Below are positions 3,001 through 20,234 of a stretch of DNA of 20,241 bases, in pieces. This DNA is from a virus. The notes beneath the pieces were generated by a model. It did no database searches. It saw nothing but the letters and a program-made list of their open reading frames with translations, and was not told the DNA's origin. The position numbers and the translations under genes were made by a program. How positions within the stretch are numbered: position 1 is the first letter of the stretch; each line of letters starts with the position of its first letter. The stretch is from positions 1-20,241 of IMG/VR virus record IMGVR_UViG_3300023301_000152. One strand, 5' to 3'.

Positions 3001-3170
3001 TATGGCAAGCTTGTAATTGTAACTTTGGAATATGTTCCTCCTGCCGGGTCATAGAAATTTTCAGAAAAATCACCTTCTCCGAAGAGAGTGATGATTTTAT
3101 TAATACTTCTGTAATTATTACTTACCGTAGGCTTGTAAGTAGGGGCTATTTTATTTATGTTTAATTCCAT
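1..3170 (-). CDS. Very large fibre/adhesin-like virion protein, 3' end outside window
   Basis: Reading from an ATG at 3170-3168, the frame stays open to the left edge, giving at least 1,056 residues without a stop. It begins MELNINKIAPTYKPTV. The start lies 4 bases past the stop of the preceding neck gene, so the two are probably co-transcribed. The first ~400 residues are Thr/Asn/Asp-rich and beta-like, with repeated short patterns such as ITGTTVTWKYRN that are typical of phage fibres. Residues ~430-665 look like a lectin-type (LamG/concanavalin-like) domain, with a GVGAY-like glycine-rich entry and an AARSQTSAAFSDIEF exit strand. Residues ~890-1025 resemble a carbohydrate-binding jelly roll ending LLDDISLVQG. 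I infer a tail fibre, head fibre or receptor-binding protein that attaches to surface glycans. The domain calls rest on pattern recognition, and the C-terminus is not visible. That this is one large coding frame is near certain. Confidence 0.85.
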   Translation of the reverse strand, partial: MELNINKIAPTYKPTVSNNYRSINKIITLFGEGDFSENFYDPAGGTYSKVTITSLPYLPLTLGGDVVVIGTEFSAVNSQNLRLELSDSFAIHNGVLYEFTKNIDDIIADYNALGKKLLSNTNGILLFIDPDNLSDTTFIQGVGVKETDLLIGFNVSSSLTNIRTIDHLFSLLPWENVNIKTNYILMVPGSDLQNPVIAFEVTTVGTTRTSTIRLFDNTELSDSWEVEAAVPVVLTDFNAAPNRNRIFKVNAVDIFETLTAMVQPTITGTTVTWKYRNELNVIQELSLDLLPLLPDVTDINIYSVEWDVDRPNVLLIIESDLTTHEADFERFLLTAVLNANGTITLSQDATEILTISKVGTTNNYYDLDGLPSLADIQGLPKGIKDQLYFITEEGTNKVLPDWLMARATVVQSQEEWDFATANGIDIKNIFDSWEMFSHYSGSHAGGGIGAYSPPNFPALNPDDGASVSLTAEAFYNRSAWSYDEVNSQIFLSANYHAYTGLISPREYANYTLEATMSSANTDDDFIALVIAFWTDPTTGYQHTISIVRAMIEISAQGNWTYQLIYNFTQTTQKLLFDGTNLAPLPGGAVNGWFANGPTRVRVIRTADTFSIKCSQFGSLLIDDTTEITLDLNSDPLLEGAKVISKVGFAARSQTSAAFSDIEFTGLTDYIFWNKADDTYDTYEWNPNTLVFDLQNPKTTFAKDYIGRNRFIHSYLFDKVFHVDRNDKLICIKGDEGISWDPFNALSIGTDNRPYLSSLLFGTVENKKLYYYLKHNQNLDFTVYASWRINGNTYGIPTPISQSITLSPADGVYGRYDMFVLNADGTITAIEGTPSANPQEPVVADSASQLEGSFVFIPDNATVPDGFDTITIYDENAQEVGGEWDADSATPDNPRIVLDSATLPSKGTVSIEGTLNEQYDALSFRTGTPIAVDSVDAISYSLKNKAIVKKGYVFRIFIFGLDANGILKSYPLEIDPIYDRNNITTYQELSAIVPSTGLPFLTFHYIKFVILANDNEGYGFLLDDISLVQGNGQPIIQNFVTAEYVRSEDEKYLQLAK

Positions 3171-3174
3171 AGTT

Positions 3175-4359
3175 TTATATACTTACCCATATACCATCGA
3201 TCTTATCTCTGATAGAGAAAGACAGCGAATCTGTTTGTATGTCAAAAGGATCTATTCCTAAGTGTCCTAGTTTTTCGTAGTAAAGATCATCCCTTGTAAT
3301 GACAACCAATTCCTGTAGCTCCTGTCCATCAAAGTAGAATGTTCCGGAGTTGTTAGGATTGATAGCATCGATTCTAACAGAATGAATAGGATCATTTTCA
3401 AAATCGCTGTAAGCAGGATCAGCATTCTCCATAAAATAATCCAGAGTTATTGTGGTAAATGTTCCCGCGGTAACGTCGATGTTAATATCTCCCATAGAAG
3501 GGGGTTGGTTTACTCCTGGTTCTGGTTCTGGATCTACTGGAGGCACATAATCAGGATCAGGATAGCTTCCGTCTCCATCTATAGAAGCACCGGTTCCGTC
3601 TCCACCATTAGTAGTTCCTTGATTATCGACTGCAGGTAATACTTGTCCTGGGCTGGTGCCTATCACACCAAGTTCTCCCGTATCAGGATCATATACCGGC
3701 AGCGTATCTTCAGGGATAGCACCAAAGCATCCTCCACTCTCAGAGTAAAGCAATACGTCTTTAGAGCTCATATTCATAAGCTGAGCAAGTTTGGTCCATT
3801 CAGCATCCGTAGATGGCATAGCATCATCACCTCGAGCTTCACCAATTCTATCGTGGTAGTAATTTTCGTAGTAAGCTAATAGTGAGTTTGAGCCTTTATT
3901 GCGGAATACACTGGCCTTATACAGCCAATATACGATTCCGGCTACCACAGCTTCACTGTGGTTCTCCGTAGTGACAGGATTTCCTTCACCATCAGAGAGT
4001 AGGGCATAATATACAAGATTGAATCCTTCAGGAACAAAAGTTCCTCTAAAAAATAACCAGTCTCCCTGAATCTGATAATCTCCAGGACATACTCCCTCTG
4101 AGCAAGTGCCAATAGCTTCCAGATAAAGGATATCTGGGGGAAGCCTTAGCTTTGCGTTCTTTTCGGTCTGAATAATCGTTCCAGCTGTTACAGAGTATTT
4201 TACTCTTTTCAGGATAGTAGTACCACCAAAGCCGATATCTTTCTCAGCGCGGTATATAAATCTTCGGATTTTGGGATATAGATTTTTAGTGATTTCGATG
4301 CCTGTATCATCTTTCACTAATTCTATGATTGACTGGAAGGGGGTTAGTCCAGAGAACAT
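3175..4359 (-). CDS. Head-tail adaptor (P22 gp4-like) fused to a cadherin/Ig-like domain
   Basis: This 394-residue protein has three parts. Residues ~1-210 are mostly helical, starting FSGLTPFQSIIELVKDDTG and containing RRFIYRAEKDIG, LRLPPDIL and an AVVAGIVYWLYKA helix. That arrangement resembles the neck/tail-stabilisation ring proteins of short-tailed phages. Residues ~238-287 are a low-complexity Gly/Asp/Pro linker (NGGDGTGASIDGDGSYPDPD). Residues ~287-394 look like a cadherin/Ig-like domain: an opening PPSMGDINIDVTAG, a middle FDGQELQE, and a closing TDSLSFSIRDKIDGIWV. I infer that the helical part sits in the neck ring and the C-terminal domain is displayed outside, where it may bind glycans or dock a fibre. 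Its start overlaps the end of the preceding gene by 16 bases, which suggests translational coupling. The giant fibre gene follows 4 bases later. Confidence 0.75.
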   Translation of the reverse strand: MFSGLTPFQSIIELVKDDTGIEITKNLYPKIRRFIYRAEKDIGFGGTTILKRVKYSVTAGTIIQTEKNAKLRLPPDILYLEAIGTCSEGVCPGDYQIQGDWLFFRGTFVPEGFNLVYYALLSDGEGNPVTTENHSEAVVAGIVYWLYKASVFRNKGSNSLLAYYENYYHDRIGEARGDDAMPSTDAEWTKLAQLMNMSSKDVLLYSESGGCFGAIPEDTLPVYDPDTGELGVIGTSPGQVLPAVDNQGTTNGGDGTGASIDGDGSYPDPDYVPPVDPEPEPGVNQPPSMGDINIDVTAGTFTTITLDYFMENADPAYSDFENDPIHSVRIDAINPNNSGTFYFDGQELQELVVITRDDLYYEKLGHLGIDPFDIQTDSLSFSIRDKIDGIWVSI

Positions 4360-4877: not shown

Positions 4878-5559
4878 TGTTTCTCATATCTCCTGTTTCA
4901 TCGGATTTCATCCTAAGAAACAAATTAAATTCTCTCGCGTTGACAGAGTTGATAAGATCCTCGATGAGATCATCCGGCATAGGATAATTTGATTTTGTCC
5001 AATCATAACCAGGTTCATCATCGGTATCTACTAATACGGTCTGCGTATCTAAGCTTATTGTTCCGTCAACTACAGCCGAGTTCGAAATATCAGTTACCGT
5101 TGCATTTAGTCTTGAAGACGTAAACGGAACTAATTGTGCCGGTTGTATTAATCCATTTTTAAGCACCAGTCTATTGTTTAGGAGCTTTAGTATTGGATGG
5201 TTCTTATTGAATTTGTCATAGCTGGCATTGACATAGGAATCAGCACTAGCCACTGAGATCGGATATCCATTATAATCTACAGAGAGTCCAGAATTATGCT
5301 TGAAGCTTATAAGCTTCGGGATTGCTGTAGAAATGAATTCTTTGTAATTGGTGTTATAGGTAAAAGTAATAGGGCCCAAAAATTGAAAGACTTCATCCGG
5401 CAACTCTAATCCTTGTTGATATACTTTGTTGAGGTGTTTCCCTCTGTGGATCCTTAGGAATGCACGAAGTAACCGTTCATTGATAGAATCATCCTGATTG
5501 CTTTCACTGGCTCTTACAACATCCCAAATGGCGTGAATAACATCTACTTCTCTATTCAT
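4843..5559 (-). CDS. Probable head-completion / neck ring protein
   Basis: This 238-residue protein has a helical N-terminus (ERLLRAFLRIHRGKHLNKVY), a beta-rich middle at residues ~60-175, and a C-terminal stretch (DDEPGYDWTKSNYPMPDDL, residues 181-199) followed by a helix (IEDLINSVNAREFNLFL). The 'YPMP-DDLI-helix' ending resembles proteins I associate with the adaptor cluster of Bacteroidota podovirus-like phages, where such proteins form rings under the portal. The start is fused to the upstream stop: the A of TAA is the A of the ATG (5559). This arrangement usually means termination-reinitiation coupling and fixes the start well. The 3' end overlaps the next gene by 35 bases. The exact structural role is inferred from neighbours. 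Confidence 0.6.
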   Translation of the reverse strand: MNREVDVIHAIWDVVRASESNQDDSINERLLRAFLRIHRGKHLNKVYQQGLELPDEVFQFLGPITFTYNTNYKEFISTAIPKLISFKHNSGLSVDYNGYPISVASADSYVNASYDKFNKNHPILKLLNNRLVLKNGLIQPAQLVPFTSSRLNATVTDISNSAVVDGTISLDTQTVLVDTDDEPGYDWTKSNYPMPDDLIEDLINSVNAREFNLFLRMKSDETGDMRNNANPQNVPEEH

Positions 5560-6203
5560 TATTTAGTAAATTTCCTGTATGCATCTTCAATCAGATAATT
5601 GCTCTGGAATCTAGGATCCGCAGTAGACTTGAATAAGCTCGTTACCGTGCTTAAAATTATATTCTCAATAGCATCATCAGGGAGGTTAATAATCCTTTGG
5701 GTTTTTTGACTGGTTTTGGCAAAGGTGGGTTTCTTGCAATATTTTATCACCATAGTTTTAGGCACATCTGTACCAGAGTCTATCTGAAACAAGTTGTTCT
5801 CCTGGAGAATAATAGGGTAATACTTTGTAGGTTGCTTTGTTGGATTTATCAGCGCATTTTTATACTCCGCTTGCTTCATTAAATCTGCCCTTCGGCATCT
5901 AGTACCATCAACATAGAGGATATCGTAACTCACAAGACGAAGGTAATTCATAGGAACACCAGCGACATATCGCAAGGTGTCATTAGGGTCTTCAGTAATG
6001 GGGAGATTGCCGGGAATAATAAGTGGCCGAATATCATCGACCACCTCTTGTGTTTTTTCCAATATTCTCAACTTCTCTCCAATAAACTTTAAAGCCGCAG
6101 TTTCAAAGTGACTTAGCAGAATGGGCAAAGGGAAGTAGTCGCTTTCCACTTTGTCCACAAACTGCTTTAACTTTTCATCGACTTCTTTGAGAGTATAGTC
6201 CAT
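5559..6203 (-). CDS. Probable neck/tail ring adaptor protein
   Basis: This 214-residue protein is helical at the N-terminus (residues 1-60, including FETAALKFIGEKLRILEKTQ). A beta-rich core follows, with NYLRLVSYDILYVDGTRCRR and a RINLPDDAIENIIL helix near residue 175. It has no signal peptide or membrane segment. The sequence and its position, third after the capsid gene and directly before two more adaptor-like genes, fit a connector that stacks on the portal. It starts 3 bases after the stop of the preceding gene and shares its stop codon with the next start. The family assignment is by resemblance and gene order. A capsid-vertex or tail-hub role cannot be excluded. Confidence 0.6.
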   Translation of the reverse strand: MDYTLKEVDEKLKQFVDKVESDYFPLPILLSHFETAALKFIGEKLRILEKTQEVVDDIRPLIIPGNLPITEDPNDTLRYVAGVPMNYLRLVSYDILYVDGTRCRRADLMKQAEYKNALINPTKQPTKYYPIILQENNLFQIDSGTDVPKTMVIKYCKKPTFAKTSQKTQRIINLPDDAIENIILSTVTSLFKSTADPRFQSNYLIEDAYRKFTK

Positions 6204-12256: not shown

Positions 12257-14437
12257 TTAATTTTTATTGATATTTTTGTGTATTTCGTTCAAAGTAAATG
12301 ACATTACGTCCTGGTCATATTTATCAAAGATAGCGTCACGCTCCTGTTTTATCTTATCTTCATAGGATAATTGATTGTTCTGGTATTCGTCTTTCTGAAC
12401 ACCAACTAAGTCATATTCAGGATCGAATATAGATTTCTTTTCTTCATATCCATAAGGATCGCCATTTTTCTCTTTGTATTGGTCTTGATAGCTTTTAAAA
12501 ACCATCTGGCCATCTTCCATTACCCAGGAAGAGAACTCCTCCAAAGGATCTGTATAACCCTCTTCATCTTCAATACCATCGGTAAGCTCGGTAAACATAT
12601 CCAGCTTATAGGCTAGTACCATTCCGTAAGCAGAAGCTAAATCGGCATTCTCATCCCCAAAGTCAATTAGGTGGTTTAATATTTCCTCGAACCATATCTT
12701 ATTCCAGTTCTCATTGACTTCTTTCTGTAGAAGCTTAGTGATAAACCTATGTGCATATTGGTTCGGCATTTTCAATCCATAAGTATTGACCGCTTTGGAA
12801 TTATATCCTGAGGATTCCAGATCAGGGCGTTCCTTCAAGTGAGCCTCTCCCCCGATATCTAGGAAATAATTTTTGATTAGAATTTTAGTATGCTCCAGGA
12901 GCATCTTAGTATCATAATATACAGCCAATCTAAAGGTAGCAGAATAGAACTCATCATCATTGTCAGAGCCACCACGATCTAATAGATATGCGATAGGCAT
13001 ATCATAAGGCTGGTTAATTCCGCAGAATACGCGATATACAACGGTAGCCCCCAGGGAACCTTTCCCCTCAGCAACCTCATCATCATAACTATCACAACCG
13101 ATGATATCAGGATTGTAAGGGAGTTTAGAATGATCTATAGGATCCAGGATCTTTTTGATGGTTCCTAGTTTTTCGTCCTCGACGAAAACTAGCTTAGACT
13201 TTCTCTGGAAGTGTATTTTATCTCGCTCCTTTAGGTTTTTAGCGCGGGAGACAAGTTTTAAAGTCTGCTCATCTTTAGTGATCCATTCCAGAGTACCTGT
13301 CTTTTGCAAGTATGGAGAGGAATCAAGCCTTGTAGTTTGAGCATTTAATTTCTTGCGGTTAAGTAAGCCTCCAGAGTTCTTTATAAAGATATCAGATTCT
13401 TTCAGTGGGTAGAACTGTATGTGTTTTACATATCCTTCAGATCCTTCTTTAAGAGCTCTTTCTTTCAGGATATGTTTTAAAGCTTCCTTGCTGTTGGTTT
13501 TCCCTGTTCTAAAGTCAAAGAAAGAAACAGATTTTCCAGTCTCCTCATCCGGAACGCCATCCCCAGGGAAGTAATCAGTAGCAGAAATAAATACCTTTTT
13601 AAGTCCGTAAAGCTCTGGCTTAGACCAGAGAGTTTTATATCCTTTGGATCCCTTGTCGATATCTCCTCCCGTTCCATAGACCAGTGGCGTACCAAAGAAG
13701 ATACTCCCTTCTTTGAAGCAAGGTTCTGTAGATTGGAAAGCTGCGATGAGGTCCATAAATAACCCAGCTTCTTCAAAGATTGCTATGGATAAAGATTTTC
13801 CTTCAAATCCTGTTGGCTTAGAGTACATCGTTTTCATGTACATACTAGACTTCATTCCAATCTCAACATCCTGCTTATTCTCTTTATACTTGTAGCTCAA
13901 TCGGATCTCATCCGTATTTCTAACGCTGATAGATGCCCTGTACTCTGGGCGTATATTGTCGAGAAGGTATTGCACTTTCTCGTAGAAATCCTGAGCCTTA
14001 TCATCTTGTCCTGCGGCAACGCCAATCTTATTTTCGAGATACATAAGAAGCTCATAGGCACAAATGGCAGAACCGAACCAGGAAAGTCCTACCCTTCGGG
14101 GTTTCCCGATAATAAGTCCGTGCTTATTTTTTTTGGCACCATCAAACTCATCATACATTCTACGGTCAAGTTCCCTGTAGAATGGAGAGCCTTTTGATTT
14201 TCTTGTAGCTCCAGGTTCCAATAACTCAATATTTGCCATATTGAGGTAGAAGTAATGTACCCCTGTAAGTTTAGGCATATCAGGGCGAGGCTTATATCCT
14301 TCCAGACATCTTCGATCTTGTTCATCCCAGAAATCATCATACGCGAGAGTACCCGGTTTGAAGTCGGGCATTTCGGTATTGATAAGCGGCTTGTATAAAG
14401 AACTGTCAAACCTGTTCCAGTCGATGTTTAATTTCAT
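12257..14437 (-). CDS. terL: Terminase large subunit (ATPase and nuclease)
   Basis: This 726-residue protein is the DNA-packaging motor. The ATPase half shows a deviant Walker A (GKPRRVGLSW, residues 111-120), Walker B with catalytic acid (IAIFEEAG, 218-225) and a coupling motif (FFGT, 247-250). The RNase H-fold nuclease half shows motif I with Asp449 (IIGCDSYDDE), a probable motif II acid near Glu515 (LLEHTK) and motif III with Asp599 (ENADLASAYGM). The motif I tail GKGSLGATVVYR resembles that of crAss-like and other Bacteroidota phage terminases. The C-terminal ~110 residues are acidic and charged. It cuts the concatemer and pumps DNA through the portal encoded next. A terminator-like hairpin lies just upstream, so the gene may have its own promoter. 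All key residues are present, so it looks intact. Confidence 0.93.
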   Translation of the reverse strand: MKLNIDWNRFDSSLYKPLINTEMPDFKPGTLAYDDFWDEQDRRCLEGYKPRPDMPKLTGVHYFYLNMANIELLEPGATRKSKGSPFYRELDRRMYDEFDGAKKNKHGLIIGKPRRVGLSWFGSAICAYELLMYLENKIGVAAGQDDKAQDFYEKVQYLLDNIRPEYRASISVRNTDEIRLSYKYKENKQDVEIGMKSSMYMKTMYSKPTGFEGKSLSIAIFEEAGLFMDLIAAFQSTEPCFKEGSIFFGTPLVYGTGGDIDKGSKGYKTLWSKPELYGLKKVFISATDYFPGDGVPDEETGKSVSFFDFRTGKTNSKEALKHILKERALKEGSEGYVKHIQFYPLKESDIFIKNSGGLLNRKKLNAQTTRLDSSPYLQKTGTLEWITKDEQTLKLVSRAKNLKERDKIHFQRKSKLVFVEDEKLGTIKKILDPIDHSKLPYNPDIIGCDSYDDEVAEGKGSLGATVVYRVFCGINQPYDMPIAYLLDRGGSDNDDEFYSATFRLAVYYDTKMLLEHTKILIKNYFLDIGGEAHLKERPDLESSGYNSKAVNTYGLKMPNQYAHRFITKLLQKEVNENWNKIWFEEILNHLIDFGDENADLASAYGMVLAYKLDMFTELTDGIEDEEGYTDPLEEFSSWVMEDGQMVFKSYQDQYKEKNGDPYGYEEKKSIFDPEYDLVGVQKDEYQNNQLSYEDKIKQERDAIFDKYDQDVMSFTLNEIHKNINKN

Positions 14438-15506: not shown

Positions 15507-15890
15507 CTAAGTTACTTTAAGGTCTATAGATTTCTTCTCCGATTTATCAACTTCAGGTTCCTGCTTTGCATTTTGCTTCGCGAATTCCTCTGCAGATTTC
15601 CTCACACGCTTATACAAGCTAGTCAAAGCACTTGGCATTGTCACACCAGGCATATTTTTTCTAACACGATTATAGATTTCCTTTTCTATGGAATCTATGT
15701 ATTCATTGTTTTTCAAAATCTTTGGCTGCAGCTCATTGAGGATATCTTCGTAGAAGATTTTAGGCACACTGCCTTCTTTTACGAATCCCTCCAGCTGCGT
15801 AGCAAACTGATCAAGGTGTTCATTGGACATTCCGATAAGATTTTGATAAGCCACCAACTCCGTGGTGGACATTGATTCTACTTTTTTCAT
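15507..15890 (-). CDS. Small helical charged protein, unknown function
   Basis: This 127-residue protein is almost entirely predicted helix. It has an N-terminal helix pair (residues ~8-45, TELVAYQNLIGMSNEHLDQF), a middle helix (NNEYIDSIEKEIYNRVRKNM) and a Lys/Glu-rich disordered tail after residue ~105. It has no membrane segment or catalytic motif. Its ATG overlaps the stop of the KTSC gene by 4 bases (ATGA), a classic coupled arrangement that fixes the start and suggests linked expression. Function is unknown. An accessory role in packaging or chaperone function is possible only from position. Confidence 0.5.
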   Translation of the reverse strand: MKKVESMSTTELVAYQNLIGMSNEHLDQFATQLEGFVKEGSVPKIFYEDILNELQPKILKNNEYIDSIEKEIYNRVRKNMPGVTMPSALTSLYKRVRKSAEEFAKQNAKQEPEVDKSEKKSIDLKVT

Positions 15891-16147
15891 GGGGCTTCGA
15901 TTTTATTTACCTTTAGGGTTAATGATTTTTTAAAATTCTTTGAGAAGTAAGCGCCTCTGCTCGGAGAGTCTTCCAACTTCTGGAACTTTGCTTGGGTTAC
16001 AGGCGTATAGCTATACACACTGTCATTGGCACGAAATTGAACGTAGAGAATCCCTTTTACAGGATTATAAGCTACTTCTTTCATCTGAGAACTCTCAGGA
16101 GTTGTGAATCTCGGCCAGCTGGGGTTGATAGGTACGATTTGATCCAT
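15887..16147 (-). CDS. KTSC-domain protein
   Basis: This 86-residue protein matches the KTSC pattern. It has a Ser-rich entry (residues ~18-22), a V-x-Y-N step (EVAYNPVKGILYVQF, 24-38), the Y-x-Y strand with Val-containing turn (SVYSYTPVTQAKFQKL, 43-58), and the 'S-x-G-x-F' exit (SPSRGAYFSKNFKK, 61-74). The KTSC domain is named for resemblance to the C-terminus of lysyl-tRNA synthetase. It is common as a stand-alone phage protein, but no biochemical role is established. It starts 3 bases after the GroEL stop and its stop overlaps the next start by 4 bases. Confidence 0.75.
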   Translation of the reverse strand: MDQIVPINPSWPRFTTPESSQMKEVAYNPVKGILYVQFRANDSVYSYTPVTQAKFQKLEDSPSRGAYFSKNFKKSLTLKVNKIEAP

Positions 16148-16150
16148 AGT

Positions 16151-17881
16151 TTAGTATTTAACGGTTTCTACAGGTTTCATATTTAGGATTACGCATTCGG
16201 TAGTAAGCAGCATACCTGAAATAGATGCAGCACTTTCCAAAGCAACGCGTGTAACCTTTACAGGATCTATAATCCCGGCTTTGATCATATCACCCTCAAT
16301 CATTTTGGTCTTAGCATTAAAACCGACATTAAAAATATCTTCACAATCATTGATTTCTTCAGCGGAAAGGATATTGTCATAATCCCAAGCATTCACACCT
16401 GTAAAGAAGATTAAAGAAGCGGTAAGGATTTCAAAGAATCCCTTAGGGCTTCGCTTCATAGGCTCTCCGGTAACATTCTCAATGATCTGAAAGAAAGGCT
16501 TTCTAATGGCTCTCATAACAACATCAGAACCGTACTTCATACTCTCATTTTGAGACTTACTATCCAGAACAAGATGTTTGGAGATACTTAACAATGCGGT
16601 TCCACCTCCGGGGATTATTCCTTCTTCGTTGGCGGATTTAATCGCATAAAGGGCATCCTGGAGCCTTGCCTGTTTTTCAAGAAACTCGGTATTTGACTTA
16701 GAACCAATATTAATGAACGCAATCCCATCCGATAGTCTGGAGATACGCGCTTGTAATACGGATTTTTCATATTGAGTCATTGTTTTAGTGATCTTAGCGC
16801 GTAATAAATCAGCACGCTCGATTTTCTGTTTTGCTATCTGCTTTAATTGTGTGTCACTAACCCCTGAGGCTTCTTTTACAGAAAGTGTATTCTCCGTAAT
16901 AACGACCTCCGAAGCTCTAGGCAACCAATTGAATAGATCTTTTTGAGGCAGGTCCTCAAATTGAATGCTCACATTCTCTATAAATGGTTCTTTCCCCAGT
17001 ATCGTACCAAGATCACTAAGCAAATCAGCGCCCTCATTCCCGAATCCGGGAGTTCTAGCAACACAAGCCTTTAAACTTCCCTGCACCACATTACGGATAA
17101 TCATTTCTGAAACGTGGTAATCCATTTCAGGACAGATAATCAAAAGTGCAGCCTCATCCTCAGCAGCCTTTGTCAATAGGTATTCGAGGTTAGGACTGAG
17201 CTTTGAGATCTTCTTATCAGTACTATAGATCCAAGGATGCTCGAGGATACACGTTTCATTCTCTGCATTGATATAATACTTAGAACGGAATCCAGTAGGC
17301 AAGGTCATACCTTCAATGGAAGTCATATGACTGTCGTAACTCTGAGATCGCTTGATATTCACTATACCTTGCCTTCCAGCTACCTTAAAGGCATCATAGA
17401 CTAATTCTGAAATCTCCTTATCATAATTAGATGCTATTAAAGCAACCTCTTTCAACTTCTCAGGATTGTTCTGAATTGGAATAGCACGCTTCTGCAACTC
17501 CTGGACAATAAGAGCAACTGTCTCATCCATTCCTTTTTTAATCTCCAATAGGTTGAGGTGTTCCGGGAAGTTCAATCCCTCAGTAAAGATAGCCTCAGCA
17601 ATAACCGTAGCTGTGGTGGTACCATCTCCGGCACCAGCATCGGTATTGTTGGCGATATCCTGAACAGACTCAATGGCTATTTGCTCAAAGGAATCATCAG
17701 AGTGTACTTGGCCGGCCACAGTCACACCGTCTTTGGTAGAGAATGGGCGCTGTTCCATATCGTTTTTTATCAGAACATTCCTTCCACTTGGACCTAGTGT
17801 TGTTTTTACAGCGGTTCCGATAATATTAAAGCCAGAGAGTAATCTCTCTCTGGCTTCATTTGAATATATAATATCCTTCAT
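16151..17881 (-). CDS. Phage-encoded GroEL-type chaperonin (Hsp60)
   Basis: This 576-residue protein is a full-length group I chaperonin. ATP-site signatures are intact: STKDGVTVAG with Asp51, GAGDGTTTATV with Asp86, and the P-GGG loop (IIPGGGTALL, 422-431). Asp409 in QARLQDALYAIK corresponds to the hydrolysis Asp398 of E. coli GroEL. The apical domain (~185-375) keeps IEGMTLPTGF, TDKKISKL and ARTPGFGN, so substrate/GroES-binding helices are likely present. Two differences from bacterial GroEL stand out. The C-terminus (MKPVETVKY) lacks the GGM repeats, and ~30 extra residues (about 474-518) sit in the C-terminal equatorial domain just before the nucleotide-contact loop. The ATG follows the previous stop with no gap (TAA|ATG). 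By analogy with phage chaperonin systems it probably folds the capsid protein or other large phage proteins, with the GroES-like protein two genes upstream as partner. Confidence 0.95.
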   Translation of the reverse strand: MKDIIYSNEARERLLSGFNIIGTAVKTTLGPSGRNVLIKNDMEQRPFSTKDGVTVAGQVHSDDSFEQIAIESVQDIANNTDAGAGDGTTTATVIAEAIFTEGLNFPEHLNLLEIKKGMDETVALIVQELQKRAIPIQNNPEKLKEVALIASNYDKEISELVYDAFKVAGRQGIVNIKRSQSYDSHMTSIEGMTLPTGFRSKYYINAENETCILEHPWIYSTDKKISKLSPNLEYLLTKAAEDEAALLIICPEMDYHVSEMIIRNVVQGSLKACVARTPGFGNEGADLLSDLGTILGKEPFIENVSIQFEDLPQKDLFNWLPRASEVVITENTLSVKEASGVSDTQLKQIAKQKIERADLLRAKITKTMTQYEKSVLQARISRLSDGIAFINIGSKSNTEFLEKQARLQDALYAIKSANEEGIIPGGGTALLSISKHLVLDSKSQNESMKYGSDVVMRAIRKPFFQIIENVTGEPMKRSPKGFFEILTASLIFFTGVNAWDYDNILSAEEINDCEDIFNVGFNAKTKMIEGDMIKAGIIDPVKVTRVALESAASISGMLLTTECVILNMKPVETVKY

Positions 17882-18751
17882 TTACTTTCTTTTTGATGCC
17901 AATGTTCTACCAAAGTAGAATTTAGCTTCTCTTAAATTAATTACGGCTTGGGTTCTGGCAATAGAGAATTCCCTGGAAACATCTGCTTGAACTCTCTCCA
18001 TAGGATCTATCACATCCTCGAGATCTGTCCTCAGCTGAACCAGAGCTTCAACATTGTTTTTGAGGGTAAACTGTCTCCTTTTGATATGGAAGTCTGTACC
18101 GTCATTTTTCTCTGCTGTAGGTGGAATGTCTTTCGCTTCTGTCAAAGGCTTCTCAGTCTTATAAGGATTCGTAGTTCCTAGTTCGTGAAGCATTATTCCC
18201 ATCCAGGCTTTTCCTTTGAAGAGAGTATCTTGAACTTGCTGATCTACATTTAAAGCCATATGACTCTCCTGGAACTGCATCAACTCATCGATCTTTAATC
18301 GCCATTTCTTGGTAATTGTAATCGCTCTATCTAAAGCTTCGTCTTGCTGCTTTGCTATGGCATCTTTTTTAGCTTTGATTTCGTCTTCTGCATCCACCTG
18401 CTCTTGTGTAGGTTTTACTGGTCCTTCACTGGTATCTACAGAATTTGGATCCTGTATTCCCTGTGCTTCCGGAGTATTTTCCGAGCTAGGATCCGGCTCT
18501 ACTTCTGTGCTGTTATTCAACACCTGTTTTCTATCCTCAAAGATTTGATAAGCTCCTATGCGATCTTGTCCTGTTTCTTCTTGATCCATAAGAGTGGATA
18601 AACTTTCTAAGCTTTCAATCTGATCAACGGCAACTTTCAGTTCGCCAAGATTGAGGTCTACAAGAGCAATAGGTTTCGAAGATTCTACTTCTGTCTTAGC
18701 AGCTTTTGGGGCTGCATCTTTCTTTGTGGTTTTCTTTGGAATTTTTGGCAT
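17882..18751 (-). CDS. Two-hairpin protein with Acb2-like (anti-CBASS) C-terminal signature
   Basis: This 289-residue protein starts with a Lys/Ala-rich disordered tail (KKTTKKDAAPKAAK). A helical segment (37-80) and an acidic Pro/Ser linker (~81-120) follow. Two helical hairpins come next. Hairpin 1 (~139-192) ends KGKAWMGIMLHELG and is followed by NPYKTEKP and a DIPPTAEKND linker. Hairpin 2 (~224-288) ends REFSIARTQAVINLREAKFY. As I recall them, Acb2/Tad1-type hairpin domains share this ending: a RE-L-SLA helix start, then L-(E/Q)-E-A-x-(M/F)-(W/Y)-x-G-x-(A/T)-L. Acb2 proteins are hexameric sponges that bind CBASS cyclic nucleotides. I infer a candidate anti-CBASS or related cyclic-nucleotide-binding protein, or a virion protein with the same fold. 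The gene abuts groEL with no spacer and is 17 bases from the GroES candidate. The protein is certain; the function is a hypothesis. Confidence 0.65.
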   Translation of the reverse strand: MPKIPKKTTKKDAAPKAAKTEVESSKPIALVDLNLGELKVAVDQIESLESLSTLMDQEETGQDRIGAYQIFEDRKQVLNNSTEVEPDPSSENTPEAQGIQDPNSVDTSEGPVKPTQEQVDAEDEIKAKKDAIAKQQDEALDRAITITKKWRLKIDELMQFQESHMALNVDQQVQDTLFKGKAWMGIMLHELGTTNPYKTEKPLTEAKDIPPTAEKNDGTDFHIKRRQFTLKNNVEALVQLRTDLEDVIDPMERVQADVSREFSIARTQAVINLREAKFYFGRTLASKRK

Positions 18752-18768: not shown

Positions 18769-19203
18769 TTAATAATTATCTTCAGTTTGATCCAGACGGA
18801 TCAATATCTTAAACGTATCAGCAACCATATGATGAGGGCCTTTAATCCCTTTTATATCCACCACATCAGCAATATCCTTCTGGAAGTATATGATCTTCCC
18901 TACGTGTGCCTGTGGTAGTTCTTCCCCTGCGGCATCAATCACACCCACATTAAACTTGTTGTTCTCCTGGATCGTAGCGTCAAATCGCTTTGTCTCCGCT
19001 TTTTGAGCAAAGTAATCAGGGATCAACCTAACAGCATAATCCTTAGGATTTAATACGATTTTATCCTTAATCTCTTTGTCTGTATCTTCCATTAACCAAT
19101 CGGTATGATGTTGGTAGGTAGTCTTAGGATTCTCCTTAGCGAATTCCGCAGTAACAATCCTGCCGGTATCAGCACTTTTCCAAATAAAATTCTGTTTTCC
19201 CAT
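18769..19203 (-). CDS. GroES-like co-chaperonin candidate with an N-terminal TGR-type extension
   Basis: This 144-residue protein has two parts. Residues ~8-31 (SADTGRIVTAEFAKENPKTT) match a short motif I recall in many small phage and bacterial proteins, of unknown role. Residues ~50-138 have the size and order of a cpn10 barrel: opening LNPKDYAVRLIPDYF (compare GroES IRPLHDRVIV), a polar flexible stretch (AETKRFDATIQENN, 69-82) where GroES has its mobile loop, KFNVGVIDAAG like GEVLAVGNG, HVGKIIYFQ like KVGDIVIFN, and the closing MVADTFKILIRL like LIMSESDILAIV. The canonical IVL tripeptide is not obvious; ATI (76-78) may replace it. The groEL gene lies one gene downstream in the same operon, which strongly supports a pair. 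Sequence identity to GroES looks low, as in T4 gp31, so this call needs a profile search. The start is 2 bases past the exonuclease stop. Confidence 0.6.
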   Translation of the reverse strand: MGKQNFIWKSADTGRIVTAEFAKENPKTTYQHHTDWLMEDTDKEIKDKIVLNPKDYAVRLIPDYFAQKAETKRFDATIQENNKFNVGVIDAAGEELPQAHVGKIIYFQKDIADVVDIKGIKGPHHMVADTFKILIRLDQTEDNY

Positions 19204-19205
19204 AT

Positions 19206-20234
19206 TTATAGTTGTTTTAAAAATTCATGCAATTTCTTATTCCAGCGAGCATCTGCCAGGGCATTATGCTCATTCTCCTGTTTAGGATAACTTTCTAATA
19301 ATTTCATTTCTTTTAATCCGCGATAGAAACTCATATTAGTATGATGTCCACTATTGAAAGATTCAAAATCAGTAAGCGTACTAGCCTTCTCATCTAATAT
19401 CTGCTTCAAGTCCTGACAGTACATCGGGAACCCTTTAGGCAAATCCATCATCGTTCCGAAAAGCTGGCAGAAGACTACCCAATCATAATCCGCATAGTAA
19501 GCGTAGAATATAGGATCTTTAATTTCGGAATAAGTTAAAGTAAATCCTTCATTTGAATAATCTCTGCTTGATTTACAAAACTTAATAACTTCTTCAGCAA
19601 TCTGATTATTAGTCTTTCCATATTGCTGAATCAAAGAGTTAAGATTGCCTATGTCAAAAGGATCCCCTACAACATAGTTTTGATTTCTAGAATATGGATC
19701 TTGATTCTTATGATAAGGATTATCTTGAAGATACTTGTTTTTAAGCTCCTTGTAAATAGGCCACAATACATTCTCCCGGATCCAATATTCCTTATAAGGA
19801 TCGCACTTTTCTTCTCGCGCACAGCTACCACTTTCATTTTTATTCTGACAAGTACCAGCTCCATAACATTCTTTTTCTTGAAACCTATTCCAAGCTTCGT
19901 CAATATTAAAGTCCTTAGAAATAGCATAATATTCCCTACCATCATCACCCACAATACCTATACTGATCAAATCAATCGTAGGTTTTGTCATTCCATACTT
20001 AATCCCAAATAAGCGCTTCTCCTGAGGGCCCTCAATAAATTCCGTATCTAAATAATAATTCATATATCTGTTCTTTTTTTTGTAATTCTTCCCAAGCATT
20101 TTCTTCCTCCTTTTCTCACTCCACTCCACAGTAGCAAAAAATAGCATCTTACCACTTATAGGGATTTCCCTCATTAAGTGCATTACTTCTTTATCTGGAA
20201 ATGGACCTTCCTCCCATTTTATATTATTTGCCAT
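19206..20234 (-). CDS. DEDDh 3'-5' exonuclease with four-cysteine insertion
   Basis: This 342-residue protein carries the DEDDh motifs: MNYYLDTEFIEG with Asp63 and Glu65 (Exo I), YYADYDWVVFCQLFG with Asp249/Asp251 (Exo II), and EHNALADARWN with His323 and Asp328 (Exo III). The 'YLDTEFIE' opening and 'ADYDWVVF' centre resemble Rv2179c-type RNases, which trim 3' ends of RNA. Between Exo I and Exo II an insert holds Cys123, Cys129, Cys138 and Cys144 (C-x5-C-x8-C-x5-C), a possible zinc site. The first 57 residues precede the core and are unusual for the family. The ATG at codon 58 (20063) follows an A-rich run and would give a core-only protein, so the true start is uncertain. Role could be RNA decay, DNA/RNA end processing or nucleotide salvage. 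It is the first gene seen in this block. Confidence 0.8.
   Translation of the reverse strand: MANNIKWEEGPFPDKEVMHLMREIPISGKMLFFATVEWSEKRRKKMLGKNYKKKNRYMNYYLDTEFIEGPQEKRLFGIKYGMTKPTIDLISIGIVGDDGREYYAISKDFNIDEAWNRFQEKECYGAGTCQNKNESGSCAREEKCDPYKEYWIRENVLWPIYKELKNKYLQDNPYHKNQDPYSRNQNYVVGDPFDIGNLNSLIQQYGKTNNQIAEEVIKFCKSSRDYSNEGFTLTYSEIKDPIFYAYYADYDWVVFCQLFGTMMDLPKGFPMYCQDLKQILDEKASTLTDFESFNSGHHTNMSFYRGLKEMKLLESYPKQENEHNALADARWNKKLHEFLKQL

Follow-up and report, generated by a model that had tools for sequence, protein, structure and literature searches.

The window analysed here is a viral contig of 20,241 bp in IMG/VR, in which the gene for a 289-residue protein, protein X, lies directly upstream of a phage groEL. 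A first-pass annotation took X for a possible anti-CBASS, Acb2-like protein carrying two hairpins in one chain, which raises the question of whether X is a sponge for cyclic-nucleotide immune signals and what such a gene would do beside a chaperonin.

The X gene and its place in the groEL operon

The X ORF is, from comparison with its relatives, genuine and not spurious, because it has orthologues (27-38% identity) at more than a dozen loci. The whole module is common to related contigs of the same collection (TerL identity 60-70%; Table 1). It starts with an Rv2179c-like 3′-5′ exoribonuclease (window 19206-20234, minus strand; PF16473; 'RNase H' in PHROG), and a KTSC-domain protein (15887-16147, minus strand) directly downstream of groEL is kept in most relatives.

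Table 1 Protein X, its parts and its principal neighbours in the window
Feature	Position	Strand	Description and basis
Protein X ORF	17882-18751	minus	289 aa; two-hairpin Acb2/Tad1-hairpin-related protein
N-terminal extension of X, residues 1-77	18521..18751	minus	basic tail, then small orthologue-conserved region (alignments, composition)
Linker of X, residues 78-133	18353..18520	minus	acidic, net charge -10, poorly conserved
Hairpin 1 of X, helices 135-163 and 171-190	18182..18349	minus	AlphaFold; probable duplicate of hairpin 2; invariant R151, D155, W183, G185
Crossover linker NPY...IPPTAEK, residues 195-215	18107..18169	minus	conserved across core sequences
Hairpin 2 of X	17888..18097	minus	short helix 219-229, long helices 233-253 and 260-288; hhalign, reciprocal HMM, AlphaFold
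REFSIART signature of X, residues 260-267	17951..17974	minus	within hairpin 2
Phage GroEL	16151..17881	minus	Pfam 1.3e-41; PHROG 5725 2.7e-110
Small conserved ORF upstream of X ('GroES candidate')	18769..19203	minus	
Large terminase (TerL), crAss-like	12257..14437	minus	PHROG 1.6e-52; crAss-like phage matches

X had been placed directly between a GroES candidate and groEL. The groEL half of this cassette is confirmed and adjoins X, whereas the GroES half is unproven, because the ORF at 18769-19203 is not recognised as a Cpn10: Pfam and a loose window search found no match, and hhalign against one phage Cpn10 gave only 0.5%. We therefore rejected a canonical GroES at this position. No other ORF was recognised as Cpn10 in the tested X-bearing groEL contigs either, and phages with this GroEL may encode an unrecognised cochaperonin or use that of the host.

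Orthologues of X were found in about ten distinct crAss-like lineages (L002, L003, L004-L008, L009, L011/L012, L015, L017 with a broken frame, L039 and L050/L051), upstream of groEL in every one. The GroEL start codon directly follows the X stop in the window (0-nt gap), and the spacing is -1 to 6 nt where measured, the exception being L005/L006, with 379 bp between; the small ORF upstream is separated from X by 11-19 nt. These homologues were reached only through the TerL neighbourhood and profile scans. GroEL was unproductive as an IMG/VR bait, and direct searches with X found no match in phage records (tblastn), in a single-sequence scan of IMG/VR or among PDB sequences. In L017 (745-1174) the X gene lies in pieces just upstream of an intact groEL, with the hairpin-2 reading frame still open, reflecting either a frameshift or an assembly error.

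The retention of this position directly before groEL, with such short gaps in most lineages, favours the main rival to a sponge role, namely that X is a virion-assembly or chaperonin partner (a substrate adaptor, or a chaperone for capsid or terminase) built on an Acb2-like hairpin and sponging no nucleotide. A fixed place near TerL and GroEL is also unusual for an accessory gene and counts against a sponge. We consider an assembly partner unlikely, though deserving of serious weight. The rate of change of X speaks against it, since GroEL, TerL and capsid all evolve far more slowly. No genes in the module are less conserved than X and the 127-aa ORF at 15507-15890, whose relative bit scores are 0.08-0.20 and 0.15-0.37, respectively, compared with 0.41-0.56 for GroEL and 0.64-0.71 for TerL. 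The low conservation of X is what an arms-race gene would show.

Homology of hairpin 2 to Acb2

The first-pass annotation had read an Acb2/Tad1-type signature in the C-terminal hairpin and a second, upstream hairpin followed by a conserved linker. Both elements are present in X. Hairpin 1 ends in KGKAWMGIMLHELG (residues 180-193), shortly before the NPY...IPPTAEK linker, and the end of hairpin 2 reads REFSIART...LREAKFYFGRTLA (residues 260-285).

Curated models leave X below the threshold of the family. As a single sequence it scores 13.8 bits against PF24729 (Acb2_Tad1_hairpin), below the cut-off of 27, and its L039 orthologue reaches 16.8 bits, also below cut-off; NCBIfam and PADLOC searches with X gave no match, and the best PHROG match was only 0.033. 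When the 82-kb L039 phage was scanned blind with PF24729, the sole match was X (E 6.7e-4, sub-threshold).

We then compared alignments. An Acb2 alignment was built from phage proteins (eight of its seeds scanned, 7/8 above the PF24729 cut-off); one version of it, with 27 sequences, finds T4 Vs.4, its own member, at 5.7e-17 and PaMx33 p26 at 0.014. Against the Acb2 alignment, hhalign gave X hairpin 2 88-92% and a score of 33.7-36.8, compared with 12.2 for reversed Acb2, a maximum of 14.3 over 60 column shuffles and at most 19.9 for 16 unrelated families from the same phages. A separate protein comparison gave 85.6%. The relation is reciprocal across 4,966 ORFs: X orthologues rank directly after the true Acb2s and T4 Vs.4 with the Acb2 HMM (best E 0.0011), and Acb2s rank next after X's own family with the X-hairpin-2 HMM (best E 2.2e-5). 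Among the 20 non-X matches listed for the latter, 19 are Acb2 and one is the broken X of L017; this ORF set is enriched in Acb2 loci (~80/4,966), a share that the 19/19 next shown far exceeds.

We take Y11/K26 and R67 to be ligand residues of PaMx33 Acb2 (p26). The 8h2j alignment pairs R260 and T267 of X with R67 and T74 of p26, while the N-terminal Y11/K26 region has no clear counterpart in X. Within the groEL clade R260 is present in 9/10 and T267 in 10/10 sequences, and this retained R/T pair suggests that an ancestral pocket was kept. The signal is diluted to 34% with the full 289-aa X alignment and falls to 51% for hairpin 2 when stand-alone homologues lacking R/T are added; hhalign against T4 Vs.4 alone, a single sequence and too far, found nothing.

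On these profile comparisons, hairpin 2 and the Acb2/Tad1 hairpin are remotely homologous. X as a whole is Acb2-related in sequence and departs from the family in two membership features, the curated score and the presence of one hairpin per chain. Of the first-pass reading, the homology of hairpin 2 is supported; the curated searches give no support, and neither does hairpin 1, for which hhalign gave no direct signal against Acb2 (0.3%).

Predicted fold, probable duplication and a second conserved site

The AlphaFold model of the X core (residues 134-289, from a 34-sequence alignment) has a pLDDT of 92.5 and a pTM of 0.84, and its helices form hairpin 1, a crossover, a short helix and hairpin 2 (Table 1). 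Folded alone, hairpin 2 retains the same helical elements. The Acb2 protomer consists of a short helix and two long antiparallel helices (PMC10419184), and the prediction for hairpin 2 has this layout. Two related hairpins in one chain, as first annotated, are supported by both the model, which contains exactly two hairpins, and the sequences, in which hairpin 1 matches hairpin 2 with a score of 24.6 against a shuffle maximum of 16.1. Because hairpin 1 resembles hairpin 2 without a direct match to Acb2, the simplest reading is that it is an internal duplicate of hairpin 2 that has since diverged.

Foldseek returned no match at E <= 0.001 for the core in either PDB or BFVD. With either query, core or isolated hairpin 2, nothing was significant and no Acb2, Vs.4 or Tad1 appeared among the top 50 matches, helical hairpins being weak queries and the search carrying no positive control. 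The recurrent top matches were ferritin/Dps-like bundles (TM ~0.3-0.55). These matches would fit a generic four-helix bundle of ferritin-like topology, resembling Acb2 by convergence, which we judge quite improbable: none of them has a significant E-value, no conserved ExxH-type metal motif was seen in the alignment, and the hhalign controls and reciprocal HMMs make convergence unlikely.

Profile scans also revealed stand-alone homologues of X (~165-240 aa) in other phages. These consist of the core only; the N-terminal extension is missing from them and, by alignment, is found only in the groEL-linked clade. Across the core sequences, R151, D155, W183, G185, P196 and Y197 are invariant (34/34), whereas the Acb2 R/T pair (R260 and T267) is kept in 14/34 overall. 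Most stand-alone homologues have lost R/T and kept the invariant site of hairpin 1 and linker. They belong to a related unannotated family (24 stand-alone members aligned) with its own strictly conserved putative ligand site. This family (L147-L183) is common in uncultured tailed phages, often close to terminase, and has the motif KAWLGKVLxELGxxxPY...IEPTAD...HIEKVDWLR...EARFWLGFEL. A genome scan with a family-subset profile recovered two contigs of one MAG; the whole-family profile was too diverse.

The strongest counter-argument to a sponge is that the site invariant across the whole family, as aligned, differs from the Acb2 signature, so another ligand or a structural role is still viable. 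One such alternative is that X is a binder of the Acb2 superfamily whose specificity has moved to a different nucleotide-type ligand, such as gcADPR, linear oligonucleotides or a metabolite of the phage, with its main pocket in hairpin 1 and the linker. The linker residues are strictly conserved, polar and aromatic, most stand-alone homologues have kept this site and lost the R/T pair, and Tad1 demonstrates that the hairpin family can bind gcADPR (PMC12043709). The groEL clade, X included, retains R/T, and we regard retargeting as improbable.

The same invariant site, unrelated to the Acb2 motif, and an N-terminal extension confined to the groEL-linked clade would also suit an assembly partner, as would the surroundings of the wider family, whose members in several other phages have TerL at most a few kb away or Cpn10 nearby. 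Several stand-alone homologues sit 0-6 kb upstream of TerL, and a true Cpn10 lies within ~1 kb of X in 2/4 tested stand-alone contigs. Against such a partner, all of the tested stand-alone-X contigs (10/10) are without GroEL, and the best-supported homology of X points to the sponge family. X is not an obligate GroEL partner, because these stand-alone members exist without GroEL, and an obligate cofactor was rejected.

Proposed role and comparison with known systems

We tentatively propose that X is a putative single-chain, two-hairpin cyclic-nucleotide sponge, a reading that we find plausible without holding it firmly. A hairpin would have been duplicated inside one chain of an Acb2/Tad1-hairpin relative, hairpin 2 keeping the Acb2 signature while a second site, strictly conserved, arose in hairpin 1 and the NPY..IPxTAE linker. 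The chain may fold as a pseudo-dimer and assemble through its hairpins, binding and sequestering a CBASS-type cyclic oligonucleotide immune signal, and the N-terminal extension may tether or localise it. Translated after the small upstream gene and before GroEL, X would be made together with the virion-assembly chaperonin, and the sponge would therefore be present during capsid making. Phages deleted for acb2 are reported to escape CBASS through major-capsid mutations, which links the capsid to CBASS (reviewed in PMC10419184). Given this link, a location in the chaperonin operon is sensible, although the link proves nothing.

A fuller version of the proposal is doubtful: in some crAss-like phages X would be a single-chain nucleotide sponge that has two hairpins and two different ligand sites, expressed from the operon of the chaperonin that folds the virion proteins. 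Immune suppression would then arrive along with capsid assembly, a step that CBASS may sense. In this version the wider NPY..IxPTAD family would form another branch of the hairpin sponges. The literature searched describes no anti-CBASS gene for crAss-like phages. The known Acb2-type sponges are small and have a single hairpin. A single-chain relative with a duplicated hairpin would bring these phages into the family, and the linked chain would be a natural construct for studying how hairpins make binding sites.

True Acb2 genes also occur near phage GroEL. Upstream of groEL, at a distance of 0.7-1.2 kb, three contigs that lack X and have a diverged GroEL (L023, L024 and L026) encode a genuine Acb2_Tad1_hairpin protein. 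Among 25 further phage contigs chosen for Acb2, GroEL was present in 7/25, at 0.8-3.7 kb from Acb2 in 7/7; similar gaps and scores indicate that these seven represent roughly four lineages. The two genes thus lie 0.7-3.7 kb apart in 10/10 contigs carrying both (L023, L024, L026, L074-L077 and L081-L083). Because the seven represent roughly four lineages, this linkage is suggestive and not proven, and a shared proximity of both genes to the terminase module may account for it. The recurrence points to a testable connection between the folding of virions and evasion of CBASS. In L026, a 266-aa ORF (3123-3923) has an Acb2_Tad1 hairpin at its C-terminus and an N-terminal part resembling a separate L024 protein (3221-3646), a possible natural fusion judging by sequence. 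In L024, the stretch before groEL holds the Acb2 gene, the gene for a crAss001_48-related protein (5472-5984; PF21825, E 5e-17) and a KTSC-like ORF, in that order.

These small FNPS-type Acb2_Tad1_hairpin proteins (L023, L024, L026 and L074-L083) share with X both superfamily and GroEL neighbourhood. They are mostly single-hairpin proteins of ~70-80 aa (Pfam E 1e-9 to 2e-6 where scanned), and their genes lie one to several genes from groEL, whereas X is directly coupled to it. Tad1, the Thoeris anti-defence protein, shares the hairpin family with X by Pfam definition and carries an N-terminal beta-sheet domain (PMC12043709), whereas the X model, which covers core residues 134-289, is without strands. 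The closest comparison is with Acb2 itself (PaMx33 p26, PDB 8h2j/8ixz; T4 Vs.4, PDB 7uq2). Acb2 is a homo-hexamer that sequesters cyclic di- and trinucleotides and inhibits CBASS; X was modelled as a monomer. Both are phage-encoded, and hairpin 2 of X shares with Acb2 the helix layout, the helix-A pattern and the R..(S/A)I..T signature. Acb2 has one hairpin per chain, whereas X has two, together with an N-terminal extension in its 289 residues; between the T and the EAKF motif of X there are about four more residues than between the T and the AxMW motif of Acb2; the NPY..IPxTAE linker and hairpin-1 site conserved in X are missing from Acb2; and X, unlike Acb2, sits in a groEL operon.
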